A stretch of 64,000 nucleotides of DNA from Pseudobutyrivibrio sp. (GTDB lineage: Bacteria; Bacillota; Clostridia; Lachnospirales; Lachnospiraceae): NCBI GenBank assembly GCA_017557435.1, contig JAFYYR010000006.1, forward strand, positions 38,118 through 102,117, given 5' to 3'. Position 1 is the first letter of the stretch. Each line of letters starts with the position of its first letter. A program made the translations under genes and the position numbers. Below are positions 15,261-55,282 of the stretch, one piece after another. The notes beneath the pieces were generated by a model. It was not told the origin of the DNA, searched no databases, and saw only the letters and a program-made list of their open reading frames with translations.

Positions 15261-15285
15261 TGGCCTCACTTAAAAAGTTAATAAA

Positions 15286-15626: not shown

Positions 15627-15627
15627 T

Positions 15628-39245: not shown

Positions 39246-39278
39246 TAAACAAAATATTAAATTTGTTAAGAATGGGCT

Positions 39279-39306
39279 TGCATAATTATTTAAATAGTTG
39301 TATAGT
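39279..39306 (+). promoter_or_regulatory. Possible gltB promoter
   Basis: TTGCAT (39279-39284), 16 bp, TATAGT (39301-39306). The transcript would begin shortly before the AAAGGC hairpin. Confidence 0.4.
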
Positions 39307-39314
39307 TTTGCACA

Positions 39315-39370
39315 AGACAAAGGCGTCTAAAGAAATTCCCAAAGTGGGAGTTTCTTTAGGCGCCTTTTTT
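39315..39370 (+). promoter_or_regulatory. ANTAR-type antiterminator hairpin and terminator, gltB leader
   Basis: AGAC-AAAGGC-GTCT (39315-39328) is a short hairpin with hexaloop AAAGGC. It overlaps the 5' arm of a 22-bp terminator stem (39320-39341 with 39345-39366) followed by T6. The two structures exclude each other. The same arrangement precedes asnB, amt and the GS-like gene. Confidence 0.7.
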
Positions 39371-39373
39371 AAT

Positions 39374-39451
39374 GCAAATAGGAGGGCCCACGAAGTGGGA
39401 GAACCTGTTTGCCACGGCACACCATCGCACAGCGATTTTTAAATGTGTGCC
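39374..39451 (+). repeat. Tandem double-hairpin intergenic element, copy 3
   Basis: Hairpin A is GCAAATAGG (39374-39382) with CCTGTTTGC (39404-39412) around CCCAC-GAA-GTGGG. Hairpin B is GGCACAC (39416-39422) with GTGTGCC (39445-39451) around ATCGC-ACA-GCGAT. It has the same A-then-B layout as copy 1, with a different inner core. Confidence 0.65.
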
Positions 39452-39491
39452 TTCCCATTTATGATAGGAAGAGTTGGAAGGAGTAGCAAAA

Positions 39492-42400
39492 ATGGATAAT
39501 CAACAGATGGGATTGTATAGTCCCGAGTTTGAGCACGACAACTGTGGTATCGGAGCTGTGGTTTCCATCAAAGGAATCAAGACTCACCAGACAGTGTCAG
39601 ATGCTCTGAAAATTGTAGAGAACCTTGAGCATAGAGCTGGTAAAGATGCTCTTGGTGAGACTGGAGATGGAGTAGGTATTTTACTTCAGATTTCTCATAA
39701 ATTCTTTTCTAAGGTAACTAAGGAAATTGGAATTTCCATTGGCGGTGAGAGGGATTATGGCGTTGGTATGTTTTTCTTCCCTGGTGAGGAGTTGAAGAGA
39801 AAACAGGCCATGAAGATGTTTGAAATCATCGTGGAAAAGGAGAATCTTCAGTTCTTAGGATGGAGACAGGTTCCTACAAAGCCAGAGATTTTAGGTAAGG
39901 CGGCTGTTGATTGCATGCCTACAATATACCAGGCTTTCATTAAAAGACCTGCAAATTGTAGTAAGGGACTTGATTTCGATAGAAAGCTTTATGTGGCTCG
40001 TCGTGTATTTGAGCAAACAGCAGAGGATACCTATGTAGCTTCTCTTTCAAGCAGAACTATCGTATATAAAGGAATGTTCCTTGTAAATCAGCTTAGACTT
40101 TTCTTTGCGGACTTACATGATGAGGATTACGAGTCAGCTATTGCTACAGTACATTCTCGTTTTTCTACTAATACAAATCCATCATGGGAGAGAGCACATC
40201 CAAACCGCTTTATTGTACATAACGGTGAGATTAATACAATTAAGGGTAATGCTGATAAGATGCTTTCTCGTGAGGAGACAATGGTTTCTCAGGTTCTTGA
40301 GCCAGAGATGTCAAAAATTACACCAGTATGTAATCAGGCTGGTTCCGATTCAGCCATGCTTGATAATGCCCTGGAGTTCTTAGTAATGAATGGTATGCCA
40401 CTTCCTCTTGCAGTTATGATTACTATTCCTGAGCCATGGGTAAAAAATAAGGCAATGGATCAGGCTAGACGTGACTTCTATCAGTACTACTCAACAATGA
40501 TGGAGCCATGGGATGGACCAGCATCTATTCTTTTCTCTGACGGCGATATTATGGGTGCAGTCCTTGATAGAAACGGACTTCGTCCATCTAGATATTACAT
40601 TACAAATGACGACTATCTTATCCTTTCATCAGAGGTTGGTGTACTTCCAATTCCTGAGAGCAGAATTAAATTAAAGGATAGATTAAAGCCAGGCAAGATG
40701 CTTCTTGTTGATACAGTTGAAGGAAGACTTATTGATGACAATGAGCTTAAGGCTACATATGCAGCTAGACAGCCATACGGTCAGTGGCTTGATGCTAATC
40801 TTGCACATTTGGCAGATATTAAGATTCCTAATGAGTCTGTTCCTAAATATTCTCCAGAGGAGAGAGACAGACTTCAAAAGGCCTTTGGATATTCTTATGA
40901 GGAAATCAAGGATTCAATCCTTCCAATGGCATTAAATGGTGGTGAAAATACAGGCGCAATGGGTATAGATGTTCCTCTTGCTGTTCTTTCAGAGAATCAC
41001 CAGCCACTATTTAATTACTTTAAGCAGCTTTTTGCACAGGTAACAAATCCACCTATCGATTCTATTCGTGAGGAGATTGTTACAGCTACAACTATATATT
41101 TAGGTACTGCTGGAAATGTGCTTGAGGAAAAGGAAGAGAACTGTAATATGTTACAGATCAATAATCCGATCCTTACAGTAACTGATTTGATGAAAATCAA
41201 GTCAATGAATGTGCCAGGTATCCATGCAGAGACTGTGCCTATCACATACTACAAAAACACTTCTCTTGAGAAGGCTATTGATCACCTTTTTGTAGAGGTG
41301 GATAGAGTTAATCGTGAGGGTGCCAACATCATCATACTTTCCGATAGAGGTGTGGATGAAAATCACGTTGCAATTCCTTCATTACTTGCTGTTGCAGCAG
41401 TTCAGCATCATTTGGTACAGACTAAAAAGAGAACTAGCCTTTCAGTGATTTTGGAGTCAGGTGAGCCACGTGAAGTTCATCACTTTGCAACTCTTTTAGG
41501 CTATGGTGCATCTGCCATCAACCCATATTTAGCTCAGGAGACAATTGCTGAGCTCATTGAAAAGGGACAGCTTAAAAAGGATATTCACGCAGCAATCGAT
41601 GCGTACAATGAGGCTGTTATTTCCGGCATCATCAAGATTGCATCTAAGATGGGTATTTCAACAGTACAGTCTTATCAGGGTGCCAAGATTTTTGAGGCTA
41701 TCGGTATCAGCTCAGATGTTATTGATAAATATTTTACTGGCACAATCAGCCGTATCGGTGGAATCACAATAGAGGATATTCAGGCTGATGTGGAGATGCA
41801 GCATTCAAAGGCATTCGATCCACTTGGACTTTCAGTTGACGAGACTCTTGATTCAAGAGGCCAGCATAAGATGCGCTCAGGTGCAGAGGAGCATTTATAC
41901 AACCCAGCTACAATTCACCTGCTTCAACTTTCTACTAGAACAGGTGACTACAATACATTTAAGGAATACACAGCCCTTGTGAATAAAGAGGATGCTGTGA
42001 GAAATCTTCGTGGATTAATCGACTTTAAATATCCAAAGAAGGGTATAAGTATTGATGAAGTTGAGTCTGTAGATTCAATTGTAAAGCGCTTTAAGACAGG
42101 CGCCATGAGTTATGGTTCTATCTCAAAAGAGGCACATGAGACTATGGCAATTGCCATGAATATTCTTCAGGGTAAATCCAACTCTGGTGAAGGTGGCGAG
42201 GAAGAAAGTCGCTATACAGTTGGCCCGGACGGACTTAATCGTTGTTCTGCAATCAAGCAGGTGGCGTCAGGTCGATTTGGTGTTACTAGTAGATACTTGG
42301 TTAGCGCAAAGGAAATCCAGATTAAGATGGCTCAGGGTGCTAAGCCAGGTGAGGGTGGTCATCTTCCAGGAAAGAAGGTATATCCATGGATTGCAAAGAC

Positions 42401-44024
42401 TAGACTTTCAACTCCAGGTGTAGCTTTAATTTCTCCACCACCTCATCACGATATCTACTCAATTGAGGATTTGGCAGAGCTTATTTACGACCTTAAAAAT
42501 GCAAATAAGGATGCACGTATTTCTGTAAAGCTTGTATCAGAAGCAGGTGTTGGAACTATTGCCTCTGGTGTTGCAAAAGCAGGTGCTCAGGTAATTCTTA
42601 TTTCTGGCTACGATGGAGGAACTGGTGCAGCTCCTAAATCATCTATCCACAATGCAGGTCTTCCATGGGAGTTAGGACTTGCTGAGGCTCATCAGACACT
42701 TGCCATGAATGGACTTAGAAATAAGGTTGTTATCGAAACAGATGGTAAGCTTATGAGTGGACGTGATGTGGCTATTGCCTGCGCACTTGGTGCAGAGGAA
42801 TTTGGTTTTGCTACAGCTCCACTTGTAACTATGGGCTGTGTAATGATGCGTGTATGTAATCTTGATACATGTCCTGTAGGTGTAGCTACTCAGAATCCAG
42901 AGCTTAGAAAGCGTTTTGCTGGTAAGCCTGAGTATGTAGTTAACTTTATGAGATTTATCGCTCAGGAGCTTAGAGAATACATGGCAGAGCTTGGCTGCAA
43001 GACTGTAGATGAGCTTTGTGGTAGATATGACCTTCTGAAGCTTAAGGATGTAGATGAAAGCAAGCGCATGGGCAAGGTTGATTTGTCTGCAGTTGTATCT
43101 AATCAACATCCATATGAGAAGATTGAATACGACAAGAAAAATGTATTCAACTTTGAATTAGAGAAGACAGTAGATGAAAAGGTTCTTTTAAAAGAGCTTA
43201 AAAAGGCTATTTCATCAGGTGCTAAGGGTGAGGTTGATGTCCAGGTTTCAAATGTGGACAGATCTCTTGGTACACTTTTAGGTGCGCAGCTTACCCGTCA
43301 GTATGGTGAGACTCTTGAGGAGGATAGCTATGTTGTAAATTGCCATGGGGCAGGTGGTCAGTCATTTGGTGCCTTTGTACCTAAGGGACTTACACTTAAG
43401 CTTGAGGGTGATTCTAACGACTACTTTGGTAAGGGACTTTCAGGTGGAAAGCTTGTGGTTTACCCTTCTAAGGATGCTACATACAAGCAGGATGAGAATA
43501 TCATCATCGGTAACGTCGCTCTCTATGGAGCTACATCAGGAAAGGCATTTATAAATGGTGTGGCAGGCGAACGTTTTGCAGTTCGTAATTCCGGAGCAAC
43601 AGCAGTAGTAGAAGGCTGTGGTGACCATGGTTGCGAGTATATGACAGGTGGTAGAGTTGTTGTCCTTGGTACAACTGGCAAGAACTTTGCTGCAGGTATG
43701 TCAGGTGGTATCGCCTATGTACTTGATGAGGACGCCACTTTATACAAGAGACTCAATAAGTCTATGGTTAGCCTTGAAACTGTTACAGACAAATATGATG
43801 TTCTTGAGCTTAAGAGCATTATTGCAGAGCATGTGGCAGCAACTGGCTCTGTAAAGGGCAAGGAAATCTATGATAATTTCAGTGATTATCTGCCTAAGTT
43901 TAAGCGAATAGTGCCATTTGATTACAAGTTAATGATGCAGACCATTGTCCAAATGGAGGAAAAGGGATTGTCATCAGAGCAGGCACAGATTGAAGCGTTT
44001 AATCTTTTGATGGGAAGGAGATAG
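39492..44024 (+). CDS. gltB: Glutamate synthase (NADPH) large subunit
   Basis: The protein has 1510 residues and transfers glutamine amide nitrogen to 2-oxoglutarate. ATG 39492 is set by AAGGAG nine bases upstream; the in-frame TTG at 39474 is unlikely. A 17-residue propeptide precedes the amidotransferase nucleophile Cys18 (DNCGIGAVV). The FMN synthase domain contains the 3Fe-4S cysteines C1116, C1122 and C1127 (GCVMMRVCNLDTCPVG). The GXGXG beta-helix domain forms the C-terminus. gltD starts 2 bp after it. Expression is probably controlled by antitermination in the leader. Confidence 0.97.
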   Translation: MDNQQMGLYSPEFEHDNCGIGAVVSIKGIKTHQTVSDALKIVENLEHRAGKDALGETGDGVGILLQISHKFFSKVTKEIGISIGGERDYGVGMFFFPGEELKRKQAMKMFEIIVEKENLQFLGWRQVPTKPEILGKAAVDCMPTIYQAFIKRPANCSKGLDFDRKLYVARRVFEQTAEDTYVASLSSRTIVYKGMFLVNQLRLFFADLHDEDYESAIATVHSRFSTNTNPSWERAHPNRFIVHNGEINTIKGNADKMLSREETMVSQVLEPEMSKITPVCNQAGSDSAMLDNALEFLVMNGMPLPLAVMITIPEPWVKNKAMDQARRDFYQYYSTMMEPWDGPASILFSDGDIMGAVLDRNGLRPSRYYITNDDYLILSSEVGVLPIPESRIKLKDRLKPGKMLLVDTVEGRLIDDNELKATYAARQPYGQWLDANLAHLADIKIPNESVPKYSPEERDRLQKAFGYSYEEIKDSILPMALNGGENTGAMGIDVPLAVLSENHQPLFNYFKQLFAQVTNPPIDSIREEIVTATTIYLGTAGNVLEEKEENCNMLQINNPILTVTDLMKIKSMNVPGIHAETVPITYYKNTSLEKAIDHLFVEVDRVNREGANIIILSDRGVDENHVAIPSLLAVAAVQHHLVQTKKRTSLSVILESGEPREVHHFATLLGYGASAINPYLAQETIAELIEKGQLKKDIHAAIDAYNEAVISGIIKIASKMGISTVQSYQGAKIFEAIGISSDVIDKYFTGTISRIGGITIEDIQADVEMQHSKAFDPLGLSVDETLDSRGQHKMRSGAEEHLYNPATIHLLQLSTRTGDYNTFKEYTALVNKEDAVRNLRGLIDFKYPKKGISIDEVESVDSIVKRFKTGAMSYGSISKEAHETMAIAMNILQGKSNSGEGGEEESRYTVGPDGLNRCSAIKQVASGRFGVTSRYLVSAKEIQIKMAQGAKPGEGGHLPGKKVYPWIAKTRLSTPGVALISPPPHHDIYSIEDLAELIYDLKNANKDARISVKLVSEAGVGTIASGVAKAGAQVILISGYDGGTGAAPKSSIHNAGLPWELGLAEAHQTLAMNGLRNKVVIETDGKLMSGRDVAIACALGAEEFGFATAPLVTMGCVMMRVCNLDTCPVGVATQNPELRKRFAGKPEYVVNFMRFIAQELREYMAELGCKTVDELCGRYDLLKLKDVDESKRMGKVDLSAVVSNQHPYEKIEYDKKNVFNFELEKTVDEKVLLKELKKAISSGAKGEVDVQVSNVDRSLGTLLGAQLTRQYGETLEEDSYVVNCHGAGGQSFGAFVPKGLTLKLEGDSNDYFGKGLSGGKLVVYPSKDATYKQDENIIIGNVALYGATSGKAFINGVAGERFAVRNSGATAVVEGCGDHGCEYMTGGRVVVLGTTGKNFAAGMSGGIAYVLDEDATLYKRLNKSMVSLETVTDKYDVLELKSIIAEHVAATGSVKGKEIYDNFSDYLPKFKRIVPFDYKLMMQTIVQMEEKGLSSEQAQIEAFNLLMGRR

Positions 44025-44026
44025 TC

Positions 44027-45523
44027 ATGGGAAAAGCAACTGGATTTTTAGAATATGACCGTGTAGAGGCTGAGGCATTCAGCCCTCTTGAGAGAATTAA
44101 AAACTTTAATGAATTTCATCTTCCTCTCAGTGAGGAGGAGCAAAAAAGACAGGGTGCCCGCTGCATGGACTGTGGCGTACCATTCTGTCAGTCGGGTATG
44201 ACAATAAAGGGCATGACATCAGGCTGCCCACTTAACAACCTTATTCCTGAGTGGAATGAGCTTGTATATCAGGGAAATTATGACTTGGCTTATAAGCGTC
44301 TTCATAAGACTAGCAACTTCCCTGAATTCACATGTAGAGTATGTCCAGCTCTTTGTGAGAAGGCTTGTACATGTGGACTTAATGGTGATGCTGTATCCAC
44401 AAAGGAAAATGAAAAGGCGATAATTGAGTATGCTTATGCAAATGGTTTGGCAAATGCAAAGCCACCAAAGGTAAGAACAGGAAAAACTGTTGCAGTTATA
44501 GGTTCTGGTCCTTCTGGTCTTGCTGTAGCTGACCAGCTTAACCGCCGTGGACACCAGGTTACTGTCTATGAGAGAAATGACAAGGTAGGCGGATTGCTTC
44601 GCTATGGCATTCCAAACATGAAGCTTGAAAAGCAGATTATAGACCGTAAGATCAAAATCATGGAGGAGGAAGGCGTTAGCTTTATTGTAAATGCGGATGT
44701 TGGAGCAGAGGTGAAAGCATCTGATTTGGTAAAGAAGTACGATGCAGTAGTATTGTGCTGTGGTTCCTCAAATCCTCGAGATATTGACGCTGTAGGAAGA
44801 AAGGAAGCCAAGGATATTTACTTTGCTGTGGATTTCCTTACCTCTACAACAAAATGCCTCTGGGCTAATGATATGCACCTTGTAGATGGTCAGTATATTT
44901 CTGCCAAGGGCAAGGATGTAATTATCATTGGTGGTGGTGACACAGGTAATGACTGTGTTGGTACATCTATCCGTCATGGCTGCAAGTCTGTCACACAGCT
45001 TGAGATGATGCCAAAGGCTCCAGATGTAAGAGCTGAGACTAATCCATGGCCTCAGTGGCCACTTGTCTGCAAAACAGACTATGGTCAGGAGGAGGCTATT
45101 GCTAAATTTGGTCACGACCCACGTGTCTACACAACTACAGTCAAGGAATTTAAGACAGATAAAAATGGCAACTTAAAATCAGCTGTACTTGTATCTCTTG
45201 AGTCAAAGGTAGACAAGAAGAGTGGCCGTAGAATGATGGTGCCGGTAGAGGGTACAGAGAAGGAAGTGCCATGCCAGCTTTGTCTAATTGCAGCAGGATT
45301 TTTAGGCTCACAAAAATATGTTACAGATGCCTTCAAGGTAGGTCTTGATGGCCGTACAAATGTGGCATCCGTGAGCGGGGATTCCTTTGCTACAAACGTG
45401 AAAAAGGTATTTACTGCAGGAGATATGCATACAGGTCAGTCTCTCGTTGTAAAGGCTATTCGTCAGGGCCGCGATTGCGCCCGAGAGGTGGATGAATATT
45501 TGATGGGCTACACCAATCTATAA
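44027..45523 (+). CDS. gltD: Glutamate synthase small subunit
   Basis: The protein has 498 residues and passes electrons from NAD(P)H to GltB. The N-terminal Fe-S region has C46, C49 and C54 (RCMDCGVPFC) and a second set in CRVCPALCEKAC. The FAD site is VIGSGPSGLAVADQL, the NAD(P)H site IIGGGDTGNDC, and the C-terminal FAD block FTAGDMHTGQSLVVKAI. It is cotranscribed with gltB (2-bp gap). Confidence 0.96.
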   Translation: MGKATGFLEYDRVEAEAFSPLERIKNFNEFHLPLSEEEQKRQGARCMDCGVPFCQSGMTIKGMTSGCPLNNLIPEWNELVYQGNYDLAYKRLHKTSNFPEFTCRVCPALCEKACTCGLNGDAVSTKENEKAIIEYAYANGLANAKPPKVRTGKTVAVIGSGPSGLAVADQLNRRGHQVTVYERNDKVGGLLRYGIPNMKLEKQIIDRKIKIMEEEGVSFIVNADVGAEVKASDLVKKYDAVVLCCGSSNPRDIDAVGRKEAKDIYFAVDFLTSTTKCLWANDMHLVDGQYISAKGKDVIIIGGGDTGNDCVGTSIRHGCKSVTQLEMMPKAPDVRAETNPWPQWPLVCKTDYGQEEAIAKFGHDPRVYTTTVKEFKTDKNGNLKSAVLVSLESKVDKKSGRRMMVPVEGTEKEVPCQLCLIAAGFLGSQKYVTDAFKVGLDGRTNVASVSGDSFATNVKKVFTAGDMHTGQSLVVKAIRQGRDCAREVDEYLMGYTNL

Positions 45524-45566
45524 ACCCTCATTGTGGTGTATTTGGCGTAAATATTTTTAGAGAGAT

Positions 45567-45740
45567 GCTTACATAGTCTTGGTAAGCGCGAGCAGGAAGG
45601 CTCCATATCTCCATGGGTGGGGCCCACGCCGGCGGGAAAGGAGTAATAGTTTCCAAGCTCTGCGTCGGAAACTATTGCTCTAGTAAGCGAAGCTTACATA
45701 TCCGGAGGAGGGCCCATGGGGAATATGGAAGGTGGCCTGC
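45567..45740. other. Large branched palindromic element between gltD and asnB
   Basis: GCTTAC/GTAAGC (45567-45572 with 45582-45587) is followed by a long stem. In that stem CCATAT..CCATGGG (45603-45617) pairs with CCCATGG..ATATGG (45714-45728). The stem encloses two hairpins: GAGTAATAGTTTCC (45641-45654) with GGAAACTATTGCTC (45667-45680), and GTAAGC-GAA-GCTTAC (45683-45697). GGGCCC occurs twice. It is GC-rich compared with its surroundings. Function unknown; it fills most of a 440-bp gap. Confidence 0.65.
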
Positions 45741-45772
45741 GGGAGCATGAAAGACTTGGATAGCATCTCGAT

Positions 45773-45790
45773 AGGATTGTTATCGTAACA
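45773..45790 (+). other. Isolated 3' half of the htpG/glnA leader motif
   Basis: AGGATTGTTATCGTAACA matches the 3' strand of the leader motif at 47651-47668 and 31123-31140. No 5' partner is seen nearby, so it may be a remnant. It lies upstream of the asnB promoter. Confidence 0.4.
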
Positions 45791-45824
45791 AAAAGGGTGA
45801 AATTAAAAATTTTAAAAAAAGTAG

Positions 45825-45853
45825 TTGACAAGGAATTGTCAAAGGAATATTAT
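45825..45853 (+). promoter_or_regulatory. asnB promoter
   Basis: TTGACA (45825-45830), 17 bp, TATTAT (45848-45853). The transcript would start near 45860, about 20 nt before the AAAGGC hairpin. A small palindrome GACAA-GGAA-TTGTC overlaps the -35. Confidence 0.7.
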
Positions 45854-45878
45854 TCTAGACAAATATTAATCAATGGAA

Positions 45879-45935
45879 CGACAAAGGCGTCGGAAATGAT
45901 ACTACTAAGTATCGTTTTCGACGCCTTTTTGTTTT
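45879..45935 (+). promoter_or_regulatory. ANTAR-type antiterminator hairpin and terminator, asnB leader
   Basis: CGAC-AAAGGC-GTCG (45879-45892) overlaps the terminator stem, whose 5' arm starts AAAGGCGTCG (45883) and whose 3' arm ends CGACGCCTTT, followed by T. The inner part is GATACT/AGTATC. The 28 bp to the asnB start carry GGGAAGG as ribosome site. Confidence 0.72.
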
Positions 45936-45963
45936 ATAAAAAATCTGGGAAGGGAAAAGAAAT

Positions 45964-47550
45964 ATGTGTTCAATAATGGCGTTAAGCAAATGCCACGTTT
46001 CCATGAAGGAATTTGAAGAGGCATTTTCTAAGACAGTTTCTAGAGGGCCGGATATGCAAAAGGTCATTCAGGTGAGTGATTCGGTTCTTGGATTTCAAAG
46101 ATTGTCAATTATGGGATTGACTGAAGCTGGAATGCAGCCTTTTGAATTGGATGGCAATTATGTCATATGCAATGGTGAGTTGTATGGATTCAAAAAGGTG
46201 AGAGAAGAGTTGAAAGCAGATGGCTATAAATTCTTCAGCGATAGCGATTGCGAAATCATTTTACCAATGTATCGTAAATACGGAACAGAAATGTTTAATA
46301 TGCTTGATGCAGAATATGCATTGGTTATTTACGACAAGGATGCAGATGATTTGGTAGCAGCAAGAGATCCAATAGGAATCAGACCTTTGTTTTATGGTTA
46401 TGACAGTGAAGGCTCTATCATGTTTGCTTCAGAAGCAAAGAATCTTGTTGGTTTAACTGATGAAGTAAAACCATTTCCACCAGGACATTATTACAAGGCA
46501 GGTCAGTTCATTTGCTACAGAGATTTGTCAAAGCGCAAGCCTTACAGCAAGGACGGCGTAGAGGAAACAGCACCAAAGATTAAAGAGCTTCTTGTTAAGG
46601 GGGTTGAGAAAAGACTAGATGCTGATGCACCAGTTGGATTCCTTCTTTCAGGTGGACTTGATTCATCACTTGTTTGTGCAATAGCACAGAAGATGATGGA
46701 TAAGCCGATAAAGACATTCGCCATAGGAATGAACGAAGATGCCATCGATTTGAAATATGCAAAAGAGGTTGCAGATTACATCGGCAGTGAGCATCACGAA
46801 ATAATCATCAACAAGGACATAGTTCTTGAAAGCTTAGAAGAAGTTGTGGCAGCTCTTGGAACTTATGATATTACAACCATAAGAGCCAGCATGGGAATGT
46901 ATTTGATTTGCAAAGGAATCAAAAAAGAATTTCCAGATATTAGAGTTCTTCTTACTGGTGAGATTTCAGATGAGATTTTCGGTTATAAATACACTGATTT
47001 TGCACCAAATGCTGAGGAGTTCCAAAAGGAAGCAGAAAAGCGACTGAGAGAGCTTTATATGTACGATGTACTCAGAGCTGACAGATGTATCTCAGTTCAC
47101 TCCATGGAAGCAAGAGTTCCATTTGGTGATTTAGCTTTTGTGGATTATGTAATGAGCATTAATCCTGAAATAAAGATGAACAAGTACAACAAAGGAAAAT
47201 ACTTGTTAAGACATGCATTCGAAGGTGATGACTACTTACCATACGACATTCTCTTCAGAGAGAAGGCAGCATTTTCAGATGCGGTAGGTCATTCAATGGT
47301 TTATTACCTTAAGGAATATGCAAACAGCATTTACACAGATGAGGATCTGGAAAATGCAAAACGTAAATACGAATATAGAACACCATTTACAAAGGAATCG
47401 CTGTTATACAGAGATTTGTTTGAAAAATATTACAAGGGTCAGGCTCACATGATAGCAGACTTTTGGATGCCAAATAAAAATTGGAAAGGCTGTGATGTAA
47501 ATGACCCATCAGCCCGCGTCCTTTCAAACTACGGCGCAAGCGGAATCTAA
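45964..47550 (+). CDS. asnB: Asparagine synthetase B (glutamine-hydrolysing)
   Basis: The protein has 528 residues and makes asparagine from aspartate, ATP and glutamine. The amidotransferase nucleophile is Cys2 (MCSIMALSK). The glutaminase domain extends to about 190. The synthetase domain carries the PP-loop SGGLDSS (about 230-236) and a TGEISDEIFGY segment. It sits between glutamate synthase and glutamine synthetase genes and has its own promoter and terminator-antiterminator leader. Confidence 0.95.
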   Translation: MCSIMALSKCHVSMKEFEEAFSKTVSRGPDMQKVIQVSDSVLGFQRLSIMGLTEAGMQPFELDGNYVICNGELYGFKKVREELKADGYKFFSDSDCEIILPMYRKYGTEMFNMLDAEYALVIYDKDADDLVAARDPIGIRPLFYGYDSEGSIMFASEAKNLVGLTDEVKPFPPGHYYKAGQFICYRDLSKRKPYSKDGVEETAPKIKELLVKGVEKRLDADAPVGFLLSGGLDSSLVCAIAQKMMDKPIKTFAIGMNEDAIDLKYAKEVADYIGSEHHEIIINKDIVLESLEEVVAALGTYDITTIRASMGMYLICKGIKKEFPDIRVLLTGEISDEIFGYKYTDFAPNAEEFQKEAEKRLRELYMYDVLRADRCISVHSMEARVPFGDLAFVDYVMSINPEIKMNKYNKGKYLLRHAFEGDDYLPYDILFREKAAFSDAVGHSMVYYLKEYANSIYTDEDLENAKRKYEYRTPFTKESLLYRDLFEKYYKGQAHMIADFWMPNKNWKGCDVNDPSARVLSNYGASGI

Positions 47551-47588
47551 CCCATGTGGCCCGCGAACAAATAAACAGTTTTCTATGA

Positions 47589-47671
47589 GGCTGTAGATAA
47601 CAATCTCTACATACTCTGGACAATCACATTAGTGATGGGAAGAGTATTGTAGGATTGTTAGCGTAACAGCC
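47589..47671 (+). promoter_or_regulatory. Structured leader shared with htpG (glnA copy)
   Basis: GGCTGT-AGA-TAACAATC (47589-47605) faces GATTGTTA-GCGTA-ACAGCC (47653-47671). Inside, CTACATACTCT pairs with AGAGTATTGTAG, and ATCAC-ATTA-GTGAT caps the stem. The whole forms one long hairpin with a conserved AGA/NYGTA internal loop. The AAGGAGG ribosome site of the next gene lies 8 nt downstream. Confidence 0.68.
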
Positions 47672-47692
47672 GGATTACAAGGAGGATATATT

Positions 47693-49786
47693 ATGAGTAA
47701 AGTTACAGAGATATTTGGAAGCAAGGTTTTTAATGATGAAACCATGAAAGAGCGTCTTCCTAAGGATGCCTACAAGGCCCTTAAGAATACAGTAGAAGAA
47801 GGAAGACCTCTAGATAGAGAGCTTGCAAATGTCATCGCTCATGCCATGAAGGAATGGGCAATCGAACTTGGAGCAACACATTTTACACATTGGTTCCAGC
47901 CAATGACAGGTGTTACAGCTGAGAAACATGATTCATTTATTCAGCCAGAGGAAGGTGGAAAAGTTATTATGACTTTCTCAGGCAAGGAGCTTATTAAGGG
48001 CGAGCCTGATGCATCTTCATTCCCTTCTGGTGGACTTAGAGCTACATTTGAGGCAAGAGGTTATACAGCATGGGACCCAACATCATATGCATTTATTAAG
48101 GATGATACACTTTGCATTCCAACAGCATTTTGCTCTTACTCAGGTGAGGCTCTTGATAAGAAGACTCCACTTCTTCGTTCTATGGAGACACTTGATAAGT
48201 CAGCTGTTAGAGTTTTAAAGCTTTTTGGTCATGACGATGTTAAGAGAGTTATTACTACAGTTGGACCAGAGCAGGAATATTTCCTTATTGATTCAGAGAT
48301 GTACAACAAGCGTCCAGATTTAATCTACTGCGGACGTACACTTTTTGGAGCAAAGCCTCCAAAGGGACAGGAACTTGAGGATCACTATTTTGGAACAATC
48401 AAGCCAAGAGTTTCTGCTTATATGAAAGAGTTAGACGAGGAGTTGTGGAAGCTGGGAGTACTTGCTAAGACTAAGCACAATGAAGTTGCTCCAGCACAGC
48501 ATGAGTTGGCACCAGTTTTCTCGACCACTAATATAGCAACCGATCATAACCAGCTCACCATGGAGATGATGAAGGTGGTGGCAGGCAGACATGGCATGAC
48601 TTGCCTCCTCCATGAGAAACCATTCGCTGGTGTAAACGGCTCAGGTAAACACAACAACTGGTCTATATCAACTGATACTGGAGTAAACCTGTTAGAACCT
48701 GGCGCTACTCCTTCCCAGAATGCTCAGTTCTTATTATTCCTCACAGCTGTTATCAAGGCTGTTGATGAATATCAGGAGTTACTCCGAGTATCTGTTGCTT
48801 CTGCAGGAAATGATCACAGACTAGGCGCAAACGAGGCACCACCAGCAATCATTTCTATGTTCCTTGGGGATGAGCTTGAGGCTATTGTAGAGTCAATCAT
48901 CGATGGAACAGATTACAAAGACATTAAGAAACAAAAGATGTCAGTTGGTTCTGAGGTAATTCCAAGCATTTCAAAGGATACAACAGACAGAAATAGAACA
49001 TCGCCATTTGCATTTACAGGAAATAAATTTGAGTTCCGTTCTCTTGGTTCAACTGCTTCAATTTCTGGTCCAAACATTGTACTTAACACAATTGTTGCAG
49101 AAGAGCTTGATAAGTTCGCAGATGAGCTTGAGGGCAAGGCTGATTTTGATAAGGCACTTGGAGAACTTTTAAAGAGAGAGCTTACAGCTCATAAGAGAAT
49201 CATCTTCAATGGAAATGGTTACTCAGAAGAGTGGGTTAAGGAAGCTGAAAGAAGAGGACTTGCTAATCTTAAGTCTACAGTAGATGCACTTCCTGCATTC
49301 ATCGCAGATAAGTCTATTGATGTATTTACAAAGCATAATGTATTTACTAAGGATGAGCTTTACAGCCGTTACGATATTCTTCTTGAGAATTACTATAAGG
49401 TAATCGATATCGAGGCACTTACATTTGATTCAATGGTTAAGAAAGATATCGTTGCTGCAGCTAGTGATTATCAGTTTACACTTGCTGAGACACTTAATGC
49501 TAAGGCGGCTACAGGACTTTCAGTTGATTCAACTGTTGAAAAGAAGCATCTTGAAAAGGCTTCTAAGCTTGCATTCGAAATGGATGAAAGACTTGAGAAG
49601 CTTGAGGCAGATATTGAAAAGGCAAAAGAGCTTTCAGAGACATATGAGCTTGCTAAGTTCCATCATGATGTAATCTTTGCTGATATGAATGAGCTTCGCG
49701 AGGTTGTAGATGAGCTTGAGACAGTTATCCCAAGTGACATCTGGCCATATCCTACATATGGAGAGATTCTTTACAGTGTAAAATAA
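47693..49786 (+). CDS. glnA: Glutamine synthetase type III
   Basis: The protein has 697 residues, the length of GSIII (GlnN) enzymes. Diagnostic blocks are [52 protein letters not shown] and [14 protein letters not shown]. It makes glutamine from glutamate, ammonia and ATP. AAGGAGG precedes the ATG. Its leader lacks the AAAGGC hairpin of its neighbours and carries the other conserved motif instead, so it may be regulated separately. Confidence 0.95.
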
Positions 49787-49859
49787 GATTTTTCACATAA
49801 GACGGGAAAACACACCCATTATGATTGCCTTCGGCAAAGGGGGTGTGTTGTGGAAAATC
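49787..49859 (-). repeat. Intergenic hairpin element, inverted copy (also likely glnA terminator)
   Basis: Outer GATTTTTCACA (49787-49797) pairs with TGTGGAAAATC (49849-49859). Inside, AACACACCC (49809-49817) pairs with GGGTGTGTT (49841-49849) around TTGCCTTCGGCAA. On the minus strand the inner part reads like hairpin B of copies 1 and 2, including the TTGCCGAAGGCAAT core. Confidence 0.65.
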
Positions 49860-49892
49860 ATTTTTAAAACAAGTTTAAAAATAATTTTCTTT

Positions 49893-49944
49893 GTACAAAG
49901 GCGTACATGACTCAGGATAATTACCTGAGCATGTGCGCTTTTTT
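49893..49944 (+). promoter_or_regulatory. ANTAR-type antiterminator hairpin and terminator, amt leader
   Basis: GTAC-AAAGGC-GTAC (49893-49906) overlaps a terminator. In that terminator GCG-ACATG-CTCAGG (49901-49916) pairs with CCTGAG-CATGT-CGC (49924-49938), followed by T6. The two folds exclude each other. Confidence 0.7.
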
Positions 49945-49973
49945 AATAAAGTAATAATTAGGAGGAAAATATT

Positions 49974-51719
49974 ATGGAAGAGTACACAAGTCTACTATTT
50001 GGAGTGTGGTTCCTAATTGGCGCTGCATTAGTATTCTGGATGCAGGCAGGATTTGCTATGGTGGAGGCTGGTTTTACCAGAGCCAAAAACACCGGCAATA
50101 TTATTATGAAAAATCTTATGGATTTTTGTATTGGTACAGTAATGTTTGTTTTGTTAGGCTTTGGTCTTATGTTTGGTGAAGACACATTTTTCGGTCTTAT
50201 AGGAAAGCCTTCACTTCAGATTTTTACAGACTATGCCAGCTTTGATTGGAGCAACTTTGTATTTAACTTAGTATTCTGTGCTACAACAGCTACAATTGTT
50301 TCCGGTGCTATGGCAGAGCGTACAAAGTTCATCAGCTACTGTGTTTATTCAGGTGTTATTTCACTTGTAATTTACCCAATCGAGGCTCACTGGATTTGGG
50401 GCGGCGGCTGGTTAGCACAGCTTGGTTTCCACGATTTCGCAGGTTCATGTGCAATTCACATGGTTGGTGGTATCTGTGCCCTTATTGGTGCAAAAATCTT
50501 AGGACCACGTATTGGTAAGTTCTCACATGATAAGAATGGCAAGATTGCAAAGGTAAATGCTTTCCCTGGTCATAACATCGCACTTGGTGCACTTGGTGTA
50601 TTTATTCTTTGGCTCGGCTGGTACGGATTCAACGGTGCAGCTGCAACATCACTTGATCAGCTCGCTTCAATCTTTGTAACAACAACAATTGCACCAGCAG
50701 TTGCAACTTGTACAACAATGGCTTTCACATGGGTTAAGTATGGTAAGCCAGATGTTTCAATGTCTTTAAACGCATCACTTGCAGGTCTTGTAGCTATTAC
50801 AGCTCCATGCGACGTAACAGATGCACTTGGTGCAGCAATCATCGGTATTGTTTCTGGTTTCCTTGTAGTATTTGGTGTATGGCTTCTTGATTATAAGCTT
50901 CACGTTGATGATCCAGTAGGTGCCGTTGCAGTTCACATGATGAACGGTATCTGGGGAACACTTGCTGTAGGTCTTTTTGCTACAACTTCAGCTCCTGACA
51001 GCGAGCTTACAGGTCTTTTCTATGGGGGCGGTTTTAAACTTTTAGGATTACAGGCACTCGGTGTAGTAACAGTAGGCGCTTGGGCAGCAGTAACAATCAC
51101 AATTACATTCTCAGTTATTAAGGCAGTCATCGGTCTTCGTGCTTCAGCAGAAGAGGAAATCGTTGGTCTTGATAGAACAGAGCATGGTCTTCCATCAGCA
51201 TATTCAGGATTTAACATGCTTGAAGATGATTTCGATACAGATGATTATGATGAGGAGACAGCAAGCCTTATTACAGAAACTCTGGAGGCAGCAGGCCTCG
51301 CTACTCCTGATGAGGCAATTGAAGTTGAGTACGCTCCTTCACAGATTACATCAGCAGGCAAGCCTCGTATGACAAAGGTTGAAATCCTTTGCAAGGAACG
51401 CAACCTTGAGAAGCTTAAGAATGCTTTATTGAAGCTTGGTATTACAGGTATGACTGTTTCTCACGTAATGGGTTGTGGCATTCAGAAGGGTGCGCCAGAG
51501 TACTACAGAGGTGTAGCTTTAGAGCCAGCACTTCTTCCTAAGATTCGTGTAGACGTAGTCGTATGTAAGGTACCAGTACAGCAGGTAATTGACACAGCTA
51601 AGAAGGTTCTTTACACAGGCCACATCGGCGATGGCAAGATCTTTGTTTACGATGTAGAGCAGGTTGTTAAGATTCGTACAGGCGAAGAAGATTTTGCAGC
51701 TTTACAGGATGTTGAATAA
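49974..51719 (+). CDS. amt: Ammonium transporter fused to a PII signalling domain
   Basis: The protein has 581 residues. Residues 1 to about 400 are a full Amt channel with the DFAGSCAIHMVGG block and a second pore histidine in VAVHMMNGIWG. After an acidic linker (about 415-460), residues 466-575 are a complete PII domain. Its B-loop is TGHIGDGKIFV and its C-loop KIRTGE, as needed for ATP/ADP binding. The T-loop reads YRGVALEPALLPK, without the Tyr51 that is uridylylated in proteobacteria. AGGAGG precedes the ATG. Normally GlnK is a separate protein that plugs Amt; here it would be tethered. Confidence 0.93.
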   Translation: MEEYTSLLFGVWFLIGAALVFWMQAGFAMVEAGFTRAKNTGNIIMKNLMDFCIGTVMFVLLGFGLMFGEDTFFGLIGKPSLQIFTDYASFDWSNFVFNLVFCATTATIVSGAMAERTKFISYCVYSGVISLVIYPIEAHWIWGGGWLAQLGFHDFAGSCAIHMVGGICALIGAKILGPRIGKFSHDKNGKIAKVNAFPGHNIALGALGVFILWLGWYGFNGAAATSLDQLASIFVTTTIAPAVATCTTMAFTWVKYGKPDVSMSLNASLAGLVAITAPCDVTDALGAAIIGIVSGFLVVFGVWLLDYKLHVDDPVGAVAVHMMNGIWGTLAVGLFATTSAPDSELTGLFYGGGFKLLGLQALGVVTVGAWAAVTITITFSVIKAVIGLRASAEEEIVGLDRTEHGLPSAYSGFNMLEDDFDTDDYDEETASLITETLEAAGLATPDEAIEVEYAPSQITSAGKPRMTKVEILCKERNLEKLKNALLKLGITGMTVSHVMGCGIQKGAPEYYRGVALEPALLPKIRVDVVVCKVPVQQVIDTAKKVLYTGHIGDGKIFVYDVEQVVKIRTGEEDFAALQDVE

Positions 51720-51768
51720 TAATTAAATTTTCTCTTTACAAATAAGTACGCTTATTGTACACTTTTTG

Positions 51769-51829
51769 AGTACAAAGGCGTACTTTTTTTGCGAGAGGTG
51801 ACTCTTGTAAAAAAAAACGCCTTTTTTTT
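51769..51829 (+). promoter_or_regulatory. ANTAR-type antiterminator hairpin and terminator, GS-like leader
   Basis: AGTAC-AAAGGC-GTACT (51769-51784) overlaps a terminator whose 5' arm AAAGGCGT-ac-TTTTTTT (51774-51790) pairs with the A-run and ACGCCTTT, followed by T. The small hairpin AGAG-GTGA-CTCT lies in its loop. Confidence 0.7.
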
Positions 51830-51847: not shown

Positions 51848-53095
51848 ATGTCTCAGCTATCAGTCAGTGATATCATCGATTTTGTAGAGGAAAATGACGT
51901 AAAATTCATACGTCTTGCATTTTGTGACCTCTACGGTAAACAAAAGAATATTTCAATAATGCCACAAGAGTTGAAACACGCCTTTGAAGAAGGTGTTAAT
52001 TTCGACTCTTTTCTTATTTTAGGGTATGACGATGAACAGGGAGAGGACTTATTTCTTAAGCCTGATCCAGATACCATGCACGTTTTGCCATGGCGACCAC
52101 AGTCTGGTCGAGTTATTCGTTTTTACTGCGACGTGGTACTTTCAGACGGTAGTCCATACAAATACGACTATCGTAACTTCCTTAAGGAGACACTGGCAAA
52201 ATGTGGCCAGCTAGGTGTTTCTACAAGAATGGGGCTTAAGTCAGAGTTTTACTTATTTAAAACTGATGAGGATGGAAATCCTACAAATGAGCCATTTGAT
52301 AATGGCGGATATTTTGATGTAGCTCCAAATGATAAGGGCGAGAATATCAGAAGAGAAATCTGTCTTACTTTGGAGGAGATGGGTATCAACCCTCAGTCAT
52401 CTCATCATGAGCGTGGTCCAGGTCAAAATGAAATTGATTTCATATCTGGCGACGTGCTTACTACAGCAGACAATCTTGTTACATATAAAAATGTAGTTGA
52501 AAATATTGCAGCCAGAAATGGTGTGTGGGCTTCATTTGATCCACTTCCACTTCCAAATGCTCCAGGTAATGGTCTTCATATTAAAATGGCAAATTACCGT
52601 GGCGGTGTAAATCTTCAGAATGAGGACAAGGAATTCTCAGAAGGTTTCATGGCTGGAATTATTAATAGAATGAGGGACATTACATTGTTCTTAAATTGCC
52701 GCAAGGATTCCTATGACAGATTTGGAATGAATGAGGCTCCAAAGTATATTACTTGGTCAGAACAGAATAATTCCCGTCTTTTTAGAGTTCCAGAATTTAA
52801 GGGAAAGAGAGAGCATTTTATTCTTCGTTCACCGGATTCTTGTATTAATCCATATTTAGCAAGTGCGATTATTATTCAGGCTGGTCTTGCGGGAGTTAAT
52901 AATAAGGAAAAGCTTCCACCAGCACTTGAGGTTAATTCTCGTCAGCTTACAGATGATATTTCAGCAAACTTAGAGATGCTGCCATTATCACTGGATGAGG
53001 CTATAGAATGTGCCGAGAATAGTCAGTTCATTAAGAACTCAGACTTTGCAGATATTGCTACTCATTATATAGAAAAGATCAAATCTACTAATTAG
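51848..53095 (+). CDS. Degenerate glutamine synthetase I-like protein
   Basis: The protein has 415 residues, about 30 fewer than B. subtilis GlnA; the C-terminal segment after the last helix is missing. Overall similarity to GSI is clear. E188 and E195 (SHHERGPGQNEIDF), H244 (GNGLH) and E133 are kept. The first metal glutamate of GPEPEF is K131 (GLKSEF). The later n2 ligand in VEVR is I325 (FILR). The D50-loop SSI is FLI, and NSYKRL is DSYDRF. Two of three n2-metal ligands are therefore gone and catalysis is doubtful. The ANTAR gene follows 20 bp downstream. It may be a sensor or a regulatory partner. Confidence 0.85.
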   Translation: MSQLSVSDIIDFVEENDVKFIRLAFCDLYGKQKNISIMPQELKHAFEEGVNFDSFLILGYDDEQGEDLFLKPDPDTMHVLPWRPQSGRVIRFYCDVVLSDGSPYKYDYRNFLKETLAKCGQLGVSTRMGLKSEFYLFKTDEDGNPTNEPFDNGGYFDVAPNDKGENIRREICLTLEEMGINPQSSHHERGPGQNEIDFISGDVLTTADNLVTYKNVVENIAARNGVWASFDPLPLPNAPGNGLHIKMANYRGGVNLQNEDKEFSEGFMAGIINRMRDITLFLNCRKDSYDRFGMNEAPKYITWSEQNNSRLFRVPEFKGKREHFILRSPDSCINPYLASAIIIQAGLAGVNNKEKLPPALEVNSRQLTDDISANLEMLPLSLDEAIECAENSQFIKNSDFADIATHYIEKIKSTN

Positions 53096-53115: not shown

Positions 53116-53688
53116 ATGGAAAGGGCTTTGATTGTCTGCGACAATGAAAAAGGCACTTCTTTTTATAAATCCTTTCTAAAAGAAAACGGGTTTGTAGATA
53201 TGATTGTTGCTGAGAATGCTCCAGAAGCAAAGCGAATCATTTCGGACTATGATTTTGATATATGTCTTATAAATGGTCCTATTGGTGGTTCCAGTGGAGA
53301 GGAGCTTTCCATTGATATAGCAGAGAAAAATATCTGCCAGGTTATTTTATTTATTAAGGCAGAGTATGCTGAGGAAATAGCATCAAAGGTAGAGGATTTC
53401 GGTGTAATTACCGTTCCCAAGCCTATCAATAAGCAGCTTTTCTGGCAGGCGCTTAAGCTTGCCCGTGTGGCCCAGAGTCGTATCAATATGGCTCACAAAG
53501 AAAGTGCAAAGCTGGAGAAAAAGCTTAGTGATTTAAAAATTATTTCCAGAGCAAAATTGCTTCTGATTATCAATAGAGATGTTTCAGAAGAAGAAGCACA
53601 TAAGATTATCGAAAGACAGGCAATGGATTCCCGGTTATCCAGGGCTGATGTGGCTAAAGAAATAATAAGAGAATATGAAGGAGAGTAA
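53116..53688 (+). CDS. ANTAR-domain RNA-binding antiterminator with atypical receiver
   Basis: The protein has 190 residues. Residues 1-115 form a receiver-like domain. The phospho-acceptor position is Asn53 ([11 protein letters not shown], where DxxLLDxxLPG is expected), and only a lysine in VPKPIN is typical, so phosphorylation is unlikely. A coiled coil leads to the ANTAR domain (about 125-186: [19 protein letters not shown] ... [14 protein letters not shown]). ANTAR domains bind RNA hairpins with A1/G4 hexaloops and prevent termination. Four such hairpins lie in this island. AGAAGGAG precedes the ATG. Confidence 0.9.
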
Positions 53689-53689
53689 A

Positions 53690-55282
53690 ATGACAAAGCA
53701 TGTATTTGTTACAGGTGGCGTAGTATCAGGATTAGGTAAGGGTATTACAGCAGCCTCACTTGGACGATTACTTAAAATGAGAGGATATAAGGTGGCTTCA
53801 CAGAAATTGGATCCATATATGAATGTTGATCCAGGAACTATGAGCCCATACCAGCATGGCGAGGTTTTTGTTACTGATGATGGTGCAGAGACTGATTTGG
53901 ATTTAGGTCACTATGAGAGATTTATCGATGAGAGCCTTAACAAATATTCTAATCTCACATCTGGAAAAGTATATTGGAACGTACTTAACCGTGAGAGAAA
54001 GGGAGAATATTTGGGACAGACAGTTCAGGTGATCCCACATATCACAGAGGAAATTAAGCGATTCATCTATATGGGTGCCAAGACTTCTGACTGTGATGTG
54101 CTTATCACAGAAATCGGTGGTACAACAGGTGACATTGAGTCCCAGCCATTTTTGGAGGCAATCAGACAGGTGTCTTTGGAGCAGGGCAGAGAAAATTGCC
54201 TATTTATCCATGTAACACTTGTACCATGGCTTTCAGGTTCTGAGGAGCACAAGTCAAAGCCAACACAGCATTCTGTTAAGGAGCTTCAGTCTCTTGGTAT
54301 TTCACCAAATATTATTGTTTGCCGTGTTGACCACCCACTTGAGCAGTCTATCAAGGACAAGATTTCACTTTTCTGTAATGTAAAAAAGGATTGCGTAATT
54401 GAAAATGATACTCTTGATTGTCTTTACGAAGCACCTCTTATGATGCACAAGTACGGACTTGATGATGTGGTTTGCCGTGAGCTTGGTCTCGAGAACAACC
54501 CTCCTAAAATTGATGAGTGGGAGAAGATGGTTGAGAACATCAAGGGCCTTAAGAAGACAACTAAGATTGCAATCGTTGGAAAGTATGTAGCTTTACATGA
54601 TGCATATCTTTCAGTTAGAGAGGCCCTTTACCATGGCGGCTATGCAGATAGCGCCCATGTGGATATTAAATGGGTTGATTCTGAGGAAATCACAAAAGAA
54701 AATGTAGAAGAATACCTTGGAGATTGCGATGGTATTTTAGTTCCAGGCGGATTTGGAGATAGAGGCGTTGAAGGCAAAATCGAAGCCTGCAGATATGCAA
54801 GAGAAAATGATATTCCATATCTTGGCATTTGCCTTGGAATGCAGGTGGCTGCAATTGAATTTGCCAGAAATGTATGTGGTATCGAGGATGCCAACTCTCG
54901 TGAGTTTAATAACACAGGTAAGAATTGCGTAATTGACCTTATGGAAGAGCAGATGGCAGTTCTTAGAAAGGGTGGCACAATGAGACTTGGTGCATACCCA
55001 TGTGCTGTTCGAAAGGACACTAAGCTTTATGAGGCTTATGGTTCAGATAATATTTCCGAGCGTCATAGACATAGATTTGAGTTTAACAATTCATATAGAG
55101 ATGTAATGACAGAAAAGGGACTTACTATTTCTGGTACATCACCTAATGATGAGGTAGTTGAGGCTATTGAGGTATCAACAAATAAATTCCATGTGGGAGT
55201 TCAGTTCCACCCAGAGTTTAAGAGCCGTCCTAATAAGCCACATCCTTTATTTGCGGCATTTATTAAAGCAAGTTTAAAATAG
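53690..55282 (+). CDS. pyrG: CTP synthase
   Basis: The protein has 530 residues and aminates UTP to CTP with glutamine. The synthetase domain starts [16 protein letters not shown]. The glutaminase domain has GICLGMQ with the catalytic Cys and ends with [13 protein letters not shown] 53690 is set by GAAGGAG and begins one base after the ANTAR stop codon. It is probably cotranscribed with the nitrogen regulators, as another glutamine consumer. Confidence 0.96.

Follow-up and report, generated by a model that had tools for sequence, protein, structure and literature searches.

A probable ANTAR antitermination regulon for nitrogen genes in Pseudobutyrivibrio, built on a single promoter-proximal hairpin

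How might a bacterium of the Lachnospiraceae switch its ammonium and glutamine genes together? The question is raised by a 64,000 nucleotide (nt) stretch of Pseudobutyrivibrio sp. (assembly GCA_017557435.1, contig JAFYYR010000006.1, positions 38,118 to 102,117 of the forward strand), which we call the window. Four leaders in it, ahead of gltB, asnB, amt and a gene for a glutamine synthetase (GS)-like protein, contain the same small hairpin with the hexaloop AAAGGC, and the GS-like gene is followed by a gene for an ANTAR protein. We consider it quite probable that these features together make up a nitrogen antitermination regulon in which the ANTAR protein acts on a single, promoter-proximal hairpin. 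Below, L numbers label loci and leaders and G numbers label genomes.

The first-pass annotation of the window had listed four such hairpins, each overlapping the 5′ arm of a strong terminator, so that only one of the two structures can form. Direct reading of the sequence recovers all four (4/4), and the leader folds bear out the second half of the statement. The leader elements, with the functions that we predict for them, are as follows.

39315..39328, + strand: gltB antiterminator hairpin AGAC-AAAGGC-GTCT (direct sequence reading; in 17/17 genus leaders)
39319..39370, + strand: gltB attenuator terminator; AAAGGCGTCT is common to hairpin and terminator
45879..45892, + strand: asnB antiterminator hairpin CGAC-AAAGGC-GTCG (direct sequence reading; in 17/18 genus leaders)
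45883..45930, + strand: asnB attenuator terminator
49892..49907, + strand: amt antiterminator hairpin TGTAC-AAAGGC-GTACA, five pairs including T49892/A49907, with the core GTAC-AAAGGC-GTAC at 49893-49906 (in 10/11 genus leaders, with five different stems)
49897..49945, + strand: amt attenuator terminator (folding)
51769..51784, + strand: GS-like antiterminator hairpin AGTAC-AAAGGC-GTACT (direct sequence reading; in 10/28 genus leaders)
51774..51829, + strand: GS-like attenuator terminator (folding)

On both strands of the 64 kb there are 42 hairpins with an A..G.. hexaloop and at least four Watson-Crick pairs. The loop reads AAAGGC in four of them, which are exactly the four leaders. A run of at least five T follows within 70 nt downstream in 8/42, the four AAAGGC leaders included. 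In each leader (4/4) the loop and the 3′ half of the small stem double as the 5′ arm of the strong terminator. The four leaders fold at -26.7 to -38.7 kcal/mol with the terminator and at -13.1 to -19.3 kcal/mol when the small hairpin is forced, which costs 7 to 24 kcal/mol. Judged by these energies, the two structures are mutually exclusive and termination is favoured; thus read-through needs something that holds the small hairpin.

We suggest that each leader is a transcription attenuator which would work in the following way. RNA polymerase would start a few nucleotides (about 19 nt in the case of asnB) before a hairpin of 4-5 base pairs (bp) with the AAAGGC loop. By default the loop and the 3′ stem half would pair with the downstream arm, form the strong terminator and stop transcription. 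The ANTAR protein (53116-53688), when free and active, would bind the hexaloop, hold the small hairpin and so block the terminator, and read-through would allow gltBD, asnB-GSIII, amt-PII and GS-like-ANTAR-pyrG to be transcribed. An upstream hairpin P1 for recruitment may be dispensable here, as the promoter-proximal hairpin would be the first structure to leave the polymerase. The activity of the ANTAR protein could be set by protein contact, with the adjacent, co-inherited GS homologue as the best candidate partner. The hairpins, terminators, covariation, regulon membership, promoter spacing, lack of P1, residue losses and co-occurrence are read from the sequences; from them we infer binding, start sites, the direction of control, the operon extents and a signal, perhaps low glutamine or ammonium.

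It is the extra complementary stem and not the loop word that carries the evidence for such an element. The loop sequence alone is weak evidence because AAAGGC must pair with the GCCTTT of any such terminator, and in the window the word shows no more than a mild excess (60 copies for 38 expected). A constant loop with compensating stems had been claimed from the four window copies. The loop is indeed constant, but among these copies variation is confined to the outer pairs and two of the four share GTAC, so that the covariation becomes convincing only once the leaders of relatives are added. An Rfam search of the leaders gave no match at gathering score; the best sub-threshold match was sau-19 (35.6 bits against a cut-off of 80, E 0.0012), and this and four weaker matches lie so far below cut-off that we take them for chance or terminator look-alikes.

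Leaders of related genomes in the genus were located by gene and not by motif, and were scored by a rule of an A..GG. loop, at least three Watson-Crick and at least four standard pairs, and a terminator-like tail; a gltB fragment with a leader of more than 500 nt (L096) was excluded from the counts. The hairpin is found in 17/17 gltB, 17/18 asnB and 10/11 amt leaders, and 44/46 of these leaders taken together have A1, G4 and G5 in the loop under this rule. Loop positions A1 and G4 are kept while the stems and other loop positions vary. In amt, the stems GTAC/GTAC, GCAC/GTGC, GTGC/GCAC, ACGC/GCGT and CAGC/GCTG occur with the loops AAAGGC, AATGGC, AATGGG and AAAGGG, and a change of the loop to AATGGG or AAAGGG is accompanied by the matching change in the 3′ arm of the terminator. 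Thus, as to a loss of the loop in close relatives, three of the units keep the hairpin in all or nearly all leaders; the GS-like leader does not generally do so, as discussed below. No hairpin stands before GSIII in any of the 18 genus leaders, that of the window included. Palindromic intergenic repeats, GCTTCCCC...GGGGAAGC ... GGATGAGG, were seen upstream of GSIII in L076, L085, L090, L091 and L092.

A search of 299 Lachnospiraceae genomes for the pattern ACAAAGGCGT-N(12-40)-CGCCTTTTT gave matches in 71. At 30 loci selected with this pattern, which fixes two pairs, Watson-Crick pairing is seen at pair 3 in 25/30 (13.9 on average after permutation) and at pair 4 in 21/30 (9.0), values that are approximate, like our Fisher values, because the sequences are related. 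Pairs 5-6 are at chance level and we therefore assume a stem of four pairs. The reversed pattern gave 0 matches; this is an unfair null for a terminator and is not used as evidence. We also carried out the covariance-model search proposed by the first-pass annotation. The model, R1, comprises hairpin and terminator tail and was built from 37 training sequences with stems of at least three pairs, which biases its own pairing counts and makes the 30 pattern loci the less selected test. R1 finds matches in 203/299 genomes at E<=0.01 and in 108/299 (tallied by hand) at E<=1e-5. From the best-scoring matches 110 leaders were fetched (30 + 80, overlapping the training sequences). In this model-chosen set the loop is AANGGC in 109/110, and A1 and G4 are present in 110/110 by construction.

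The genes downstream are mostly nitrogen genes. Of these 110 leaders, 79 precede GSIII, GS-like, gltB, pyrG, amt, asnB or gdh (GSIII 23, GS-like 12, gltB 11, pyrG 11, amt 10, asnB 8, gdh 4). Apart from the first six, the set comprises 31 other open reading frames (ORFs), the four gdh among them, three leaders without an ORF and one gltD assignment (L256) which at 23% identity is not trusted. A Pfam scan of the 31 ORFs gave PPDK_N in five, glutamate dehydrogenase in four, CP-ATP-grasp and SBP_bac_3 in three each, and an ABC ATPase, the OCD family and class-III aminotransferases in two each. Single ORFs encode an amidotransferase with a phosphoribosyltransferase domain, AsnA, an RraA-like protein, a Na/H antiporter, a class-I/II aminotransferase, a Na/alanine symporter, PucR, SBP_bac_5, an amino-acid permease and a class-II tRNA synthetase. 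Most, not all, of the downstream ORFs have an evident tie to nitrogen. We note that the five PPDK_N-domain proteins stand behind the hairpin in L185, L193, L226, L239 and L253, and that circularly permuted ATP-grasp type 2 proteins do so in three genera (L180, L206, L243).

Joint control had been proposed for four units. The hairpins of all four are confirmed, and the set appears to be larger. The core ACAAAGGCGT has seven copies in the 2.84 Mb assembly of the organism itself, four of them being the window leaders. L238 lies upstream of a gene of the ornithine-cyclodeaminase family. L002 lies 5′ of an ORF with a RelA/SpoT domain, followed by the start of an ORF which by eye resembles the PPDK_N proteins found behind the hairpin elsewhere; a Pfam search with this 125-residue ORF piece gave no match. 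The R1 search is lossy and apparently missed the L002 site. The seventh copy (L004) has a stem of 2 bp only and no promoter-terminator layout, and was not counted as a site. In a class-level sample, R1 matches were found in 73/245 genomes at E<=0.001. From other families of Clostridia 24 distinct loci were examined, L289, L292 and L295 being excluded and one duplicate removed, and 16 of the 24 precede GS-like, GSIII or amt.

Where does the hairpin lie with respect to the promoter? Candidate promoters were scored by the 12 sigma-70-like consensus positions, plus one for an extended -10, within 110 nt. The RNA ahead of a four-pair stem was computed with +1 seven bases after the -10; all start sites are predictions. 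The window promoters, again on the + strand, are these.

39278..39306, + strand: gltB promoter TTGCAT-17-TATAGT, end of -10 12 nt before the loop (from the sequence; weak consensus score, 8)
45825..45853, + strand: asnB promoter TTGACA-17-TATTAT, 11/12 consensus
49880..49885, + strand: possible amt -10 AATAAT, 11 nt before the loop (weak, score 7)
51735..51763, + strand: promoter of the GS-like operon TTTACA-17-TACACT, 9/12, end of -10 10 nt before the loop

TATAGT or TATATT stands at the same place in the gltB leaders of relatives that were displayed. For asnB, about 19 nt of RNA are predicted before the hairpin, in line with the earlier estimate of about 20 nt. Among the family leaders, 74/110 reach a promoter score of 10 or higher (5.3 in shuffles), and in 51/110 the -10 ends 10-19 nt before the loop, which leaves 0-9 nt before the stem (0.6 in shuffles). 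In a further 13 leaders 11-24 nt are predicted before the stem, as at asnB. In the other families 18 of the 24 loci reach score 10, and in eight of these 10-19 nt separate the end of the -10 from the loop. Since R1 holds nothing upstream of the stem, these counts and the following ones for P1 are independent of the model.

The first-pass annotation had spoken of a reduced RNA target without a convincing first hairpin, and this turns out to be general. In the window no P1 was found for asnB, amt and GS-like, and gltB has one 3-bp candidate, AAG-AATGGG-CTT, inside its promoter. No hexaloop hairpin of at least 4 bp lies within 60 nt upstream in 105/110 family leaders. The five with such a hairpin (2.2 in shuffles) consist of two true P1 (L179 and L220) and three cases of two complete hairpin-terminator modules in tandem (L182, L257 and L261, before GSIII, asnB and pyrG). 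With candidates of at least 3 bp the count is 12/110 against 7.9 in shuffles. In L179 and L220, both gltB leaders, P1 follows just after the predicted start, has the loop AATGGA or AAAGGA, and stands 29 and 31 nt before the P2 stem, slightly more than the 2-25 nt quoted for actinobacterial targets. These two leaders are the only positive controls of our scan, and since they were found, the scan does detect P1 where it is present. Through these rare dual leaders the form with a single hairpin is linked to the ANTAR motif already known. A scan for dual hairpins around the second, EutV-like ANTAR gene of G323 (L299) gave one pair only, which we read as spurious.

If an ANTAR protein reads the hairpin, the two should occur together. 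An ANTAR domain is found in 265/299 family genomes, with two in 13 of them; the 34 genomes without it comprise 20 listed directly and 14 deduced by elimination from the genome list. R1 matches at E<=1e-5 are present in 105/265 genomes with and 3/34 without ANTAR (p=2e-4), and at E<=0.01 in 194/265 and 9/34 (p=2e-7). One of the ANTAR-less genomes with a strong match, G165, has a completeness of 81%, and the GS gene of the ANTAR-linked type in it reaches the contig end. The proposal that the ANTAR protein encoded at 53116 controls all four units together therefore gains support on sequence grounds: the assembly contains a single ANTAR domain, the matches track ANTAR genes and not those of the RNA-binding protein CsrA (see below), orthologous leaders keep A1 and G4, and two relatives carry a P1-P2 pair.

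The units behind the four leaders contain the following genes.

39474..45523, + strand: gltB-gltD, large and small subunits of glutamate synthase
45964..47550, + strand: asnB, asparagine synthase (glutamine-hydrolysing)
47693..49786, + strand: GSIII, type III glutamine synthetase, without a hairpin of its own
49974..51719, + strand: amt-PII fusion, ammonium transporter with a C-terminal P-II domain
51848..53095, + strand: GS-like protein, homologue of glutamine synthetase I with E129 changed to K, R339 to N and E357 to I; candidate sensor partner
53116..53688, + strand: ANTAR antiterminator with a degenerate receiver (Asn53 at the phospho-acceptor place)
53675..55282, + strand: pyrG, CTP synthase (CTP_synth_N, 415 bits), overlapping the ANTAR stop

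GSIII would be co-transcribed with asnB. In 49974-51719 the ammonium transporter and the P-II (GlnK) domain form one polypeptide. The distance from hairpin to gltB start is 158-159 nt in the window (39371-39473) and in L076, and 64-91 nt in other relatives, about 70-90 nt less.

The protein encoded at 53116-53688 has the only ANTAR domain (PF03861, 53.6 bits, Pfam cut-off 27.3) that a search of the assembly (2.84 Mb, 96% complete) revealed. Of its relatives 24/27 are labelled Pseudobutyrivibrio, the nearest being from P. xylanivorans MZ8 (97%); its best solved relatives are Rv1626 and EutV. We compared it with the RNA contacts of EutV as given by Walshe 2022 (PMC8934654). K143, K149, E160, M172 and R175 are kept as K141, K147, E158, M170 and R173, while Arg replaces K147, Asp replaces N173 and His162 replaces Tyr164. 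At the 30 top family loci, in an alignment that includes one wrongly chosen ORF (L125), His stands at the place of Tyr164 in 25 and Met at that of Met172 in 28. The phospho-acceptor Asp is replaced by Asn53 in all 11 aligned genus sequences, the window's included, and is present in only 2/30 family rows, L105 and L110, of which L105 is a separate EutV-like ANTAR protein without a GS neighbour. Control should thus proceed, as for AmiR, without phosphorylation of that residue, and the activity of the ANTAR protein is probably governed by protein contact.

Which protein could be the partner? A GS homologue lies within 1.5 kb of the ANTAR gene at 29/30 top family loci, the exception being the second, EutV-like ANTAR. 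Among 60 genomes the linked type of GS is present in 54/55 with ANTAR (it is missing in G047) and 0/5 without; overall, 2/34 ANTAR-less genomes have it, both times at or near contig ends. The co-occurrence gives p about 1e-20 in a plain Fisher test which ignores kinship. E129, E131, E212, E220, H269, R339 and E357 (Salmonella numbering) are what we take to be the metal and catalytic residues of GS I. Of the genus relatives of the GS-like protein, 27/27 have lost E129 and E357 and 26/27 have lost R339, and the GS-like protein of the window is probably catalytically dead. Outside the genus, at 11 positions checked, 14/29 linked GS are intact and seven more differ only by E327D or R339K; the eight linked GS most similar to that of the window are all changed, and 5/6 unlinked GS are intact. 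In a second sample of linked loci 10/29 are intact. On the simplest reading, an ancestral active GS would have been paired with ANTAR, and catalysis would have decayed in one lineage while the pairing was kept, as is expected if the role of the GS with ANTAR is sensing. A precedent is offered by the moonlighting of GS with TnrA in B. subtilis. Tentatively, then, we put forward the adjacent GS homologue as partner and sensor of the ANTAR protein, a proposal that could well prove wrong. We are more hesitant still about a module common to the Clostridia, in which a glutamine-sensing GS (a pseudoenzyme in some lineages) would sequester, by contact, an ANTAR protein with a pseudo-receiver, and one hexaloop next to the promoter would be the complete antiterminator; if true, it would add a new sensor class to ANTAR systems and a natural counter-example to the requirement for P1.

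Several observations weigh against the single-hairpin ANTAR regulon. EutV requires P1, so that one hairpin alone might be too little, and the place of P1 might be taken by a feature that escaped us. A promoter of score at least 10 is lacking in 36/110 leaders, 10 of the 74 leaders that have one leave 31-65 nt before the stem, and in the window itself the gltB and amt promoters are weak by consensus (8 and 7). The GS-like gene has the hairpin in its own leader in 10/28 genus genomes only; 12/28 (L084-L094, L096) show no such leader at all and it is altered in others. This gap is real, although the genus rule misses leaders that are visible by eye in L080 and, with a G-U pair, in L071. No R1 match at E<=0.01 is seen in 71/265 genomes with ANTAR, in what is a lossy search. 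A strong match is present in ANTAR-less G229, where a contig edge shows part of an ANTAR domain at 13.7 bits, and in G224 (L219), a near-complete genome without ANTAR or linked GS and with two hairpin matches, the strong one before GSIII. Only some of the EutV residues that contact RNA are retained: the window protein has Leu, His, Glu and Ser at R142, Y164, R168 and R177, and at the 30 family loci Gly stands at the R175 place in 25 and Gln at the R168 place in 27. Finally, outside the genus the catalytic residues look intact in about half of the linked GS (14/29 and 10/29).

Could P1 simply have been missed, being divergent or further upstream in a canonical two-hairpin target? L179 and L220 do possess it, three leaders are tandem modules, and the 36 leaders without a strong promoter and the 10 with 31-65 nt before the stem also speak for it. 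We nevertheless regard this as unlikely: the other P1 candidates are near the level of shuffles, 51 leaders have a predicted start at most 9 nt before the stem, and the same scan finds P1 where it exists. Of the 24 loci from other families one (L278) has an upstream 4-bp hexaloop hairpin, with its own terminator-like sequence behind, which marks it as either a tandem module or the tail of the gene before it. Alternatively, a repressor might bind a DNA operator that overlaps the start site, an idea that fits the position of this inverted repeat just a few bp past the -10. We think it very unlikely, for an invariant centre flanked by compensating arms is what one expects of the loop and stem of an RNA and not of an operator, and the gltB, asnB and amt leaders of relatives have terminators, which the selection did not require, whose arm changes with the loop.

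These leader terminators might also be plain terminators of the upstream gene, or bidirectional ones, and the small hairpin a by-product of the A-rich arm. Any A-tract terminator looks like AAAGGC...GCCTTT, and the excess of the word is mild. The stretch 5′ of AAAGGC, however, is not needed by a terminator and still complements the 3′ bases (25/30 and 21/30 against 13.9 and 9.0), and a promoter often lies just upstream and nitrogen genes just downstream, so that we give this explanation hardly any credence. The least credible of the alternatives is that another RNA-binding protein such as CsrA reads the hairpin. CsrA also favours GG in hexaloops, and it is encoded in 154/299 genomes. The loop ends in GGC and not in GGA, and R1 matches, clearly associated with ANTAR, show no association with CsrA (55/154 genomes with and 53/145 without, p=0.90); we therefore rejected CsrA as the reader.

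ANTAR antitermination of nitrogen genes is known in kind, and what is new is the usual lack of a first hairpin, in a promoter-proximal single-hairpin form. As in the dual-hexaloop ANTAR targets (eutP/EutV, nasF/NasR, amiE/AmiR), there is an A1/G4 hexaloop on a short stem over the 5′ arm of a terminator, with nitrogen genes downstream and an ANTAR protein in the genome. Most leaders here differ in having one hairpin, which lies at the predicted RNA 5′ end or close to it, and a tighter loop. The two-hairpin model has been set out earlier, and ANTAR control was widely predicted for nitrogen genes, among them those for glutamate and glutamine synthases and for ammonium transporters (Ramesh 2012, PMC3369931); EutV needs P1 and a set linker (Ramesh 2012; Walshe 2022, PMC8934654); and the ANTAR dimer contacts one hexaloop at a time, with a call for bioinformatics on single-hexaloop targets (Walshe 2022). 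NitR of C. saccharobutylicum / C. acetobutylicum (Stutz 2007, via PMC6316151 and PMC4676874) is likewise reported to be an ANTAR antiterminator serving GS/GOGAT genes in a Clostridium, and an antisense RNA is reported. AmiC-AmiR and NasS-NasT pair a ligand sensor with an ANTAR partner, and AmiR too has a non-phosphorylatable receiver. A candidate partner gene is adjacent here as well, but it encodes a GS homologue, whose contact with the ANTAR protein is a guess. With EutV/EutW the window protein shares the order of receiver and ANTAR domain and Met172, Lys149, Glu160, Lys143 and Arg175; it differs by Asn53 in place of the phospho-acceptor Asp, by His162 for Tyr164, and by having a GS homologue and pyrG and no kinase as neighbours. 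In a literature search that covered few subscription papers and no supplements, hence not the hit tables of Ramesh 2012, we met no account of an ANTAR antiterminator with a single hairpin close to the promoter, nor one of a degenerate GS as partner.

The ammonium and glutamine genes of Lachnospiraceae thus appear to be switched by one tiny hairpin near the start of the message, probably read by ANTAR. This suggests a master nitrogen regulator for the family and points to a (pseudo) glutamine synthetase as its sensor. It also provides many natural single-hexaloop candidates before core nitrogen genes of gut and rumen bacteria, with the rare dual and tandem forms as built-in comparisons, and the natural single-hairpin leaders make the question of the purpose of P1 directly testable. 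Elsewhere in the window, at 15284-15794, RNase P RNA is followed directly by a match to the Clostridiales-1 sRNA.

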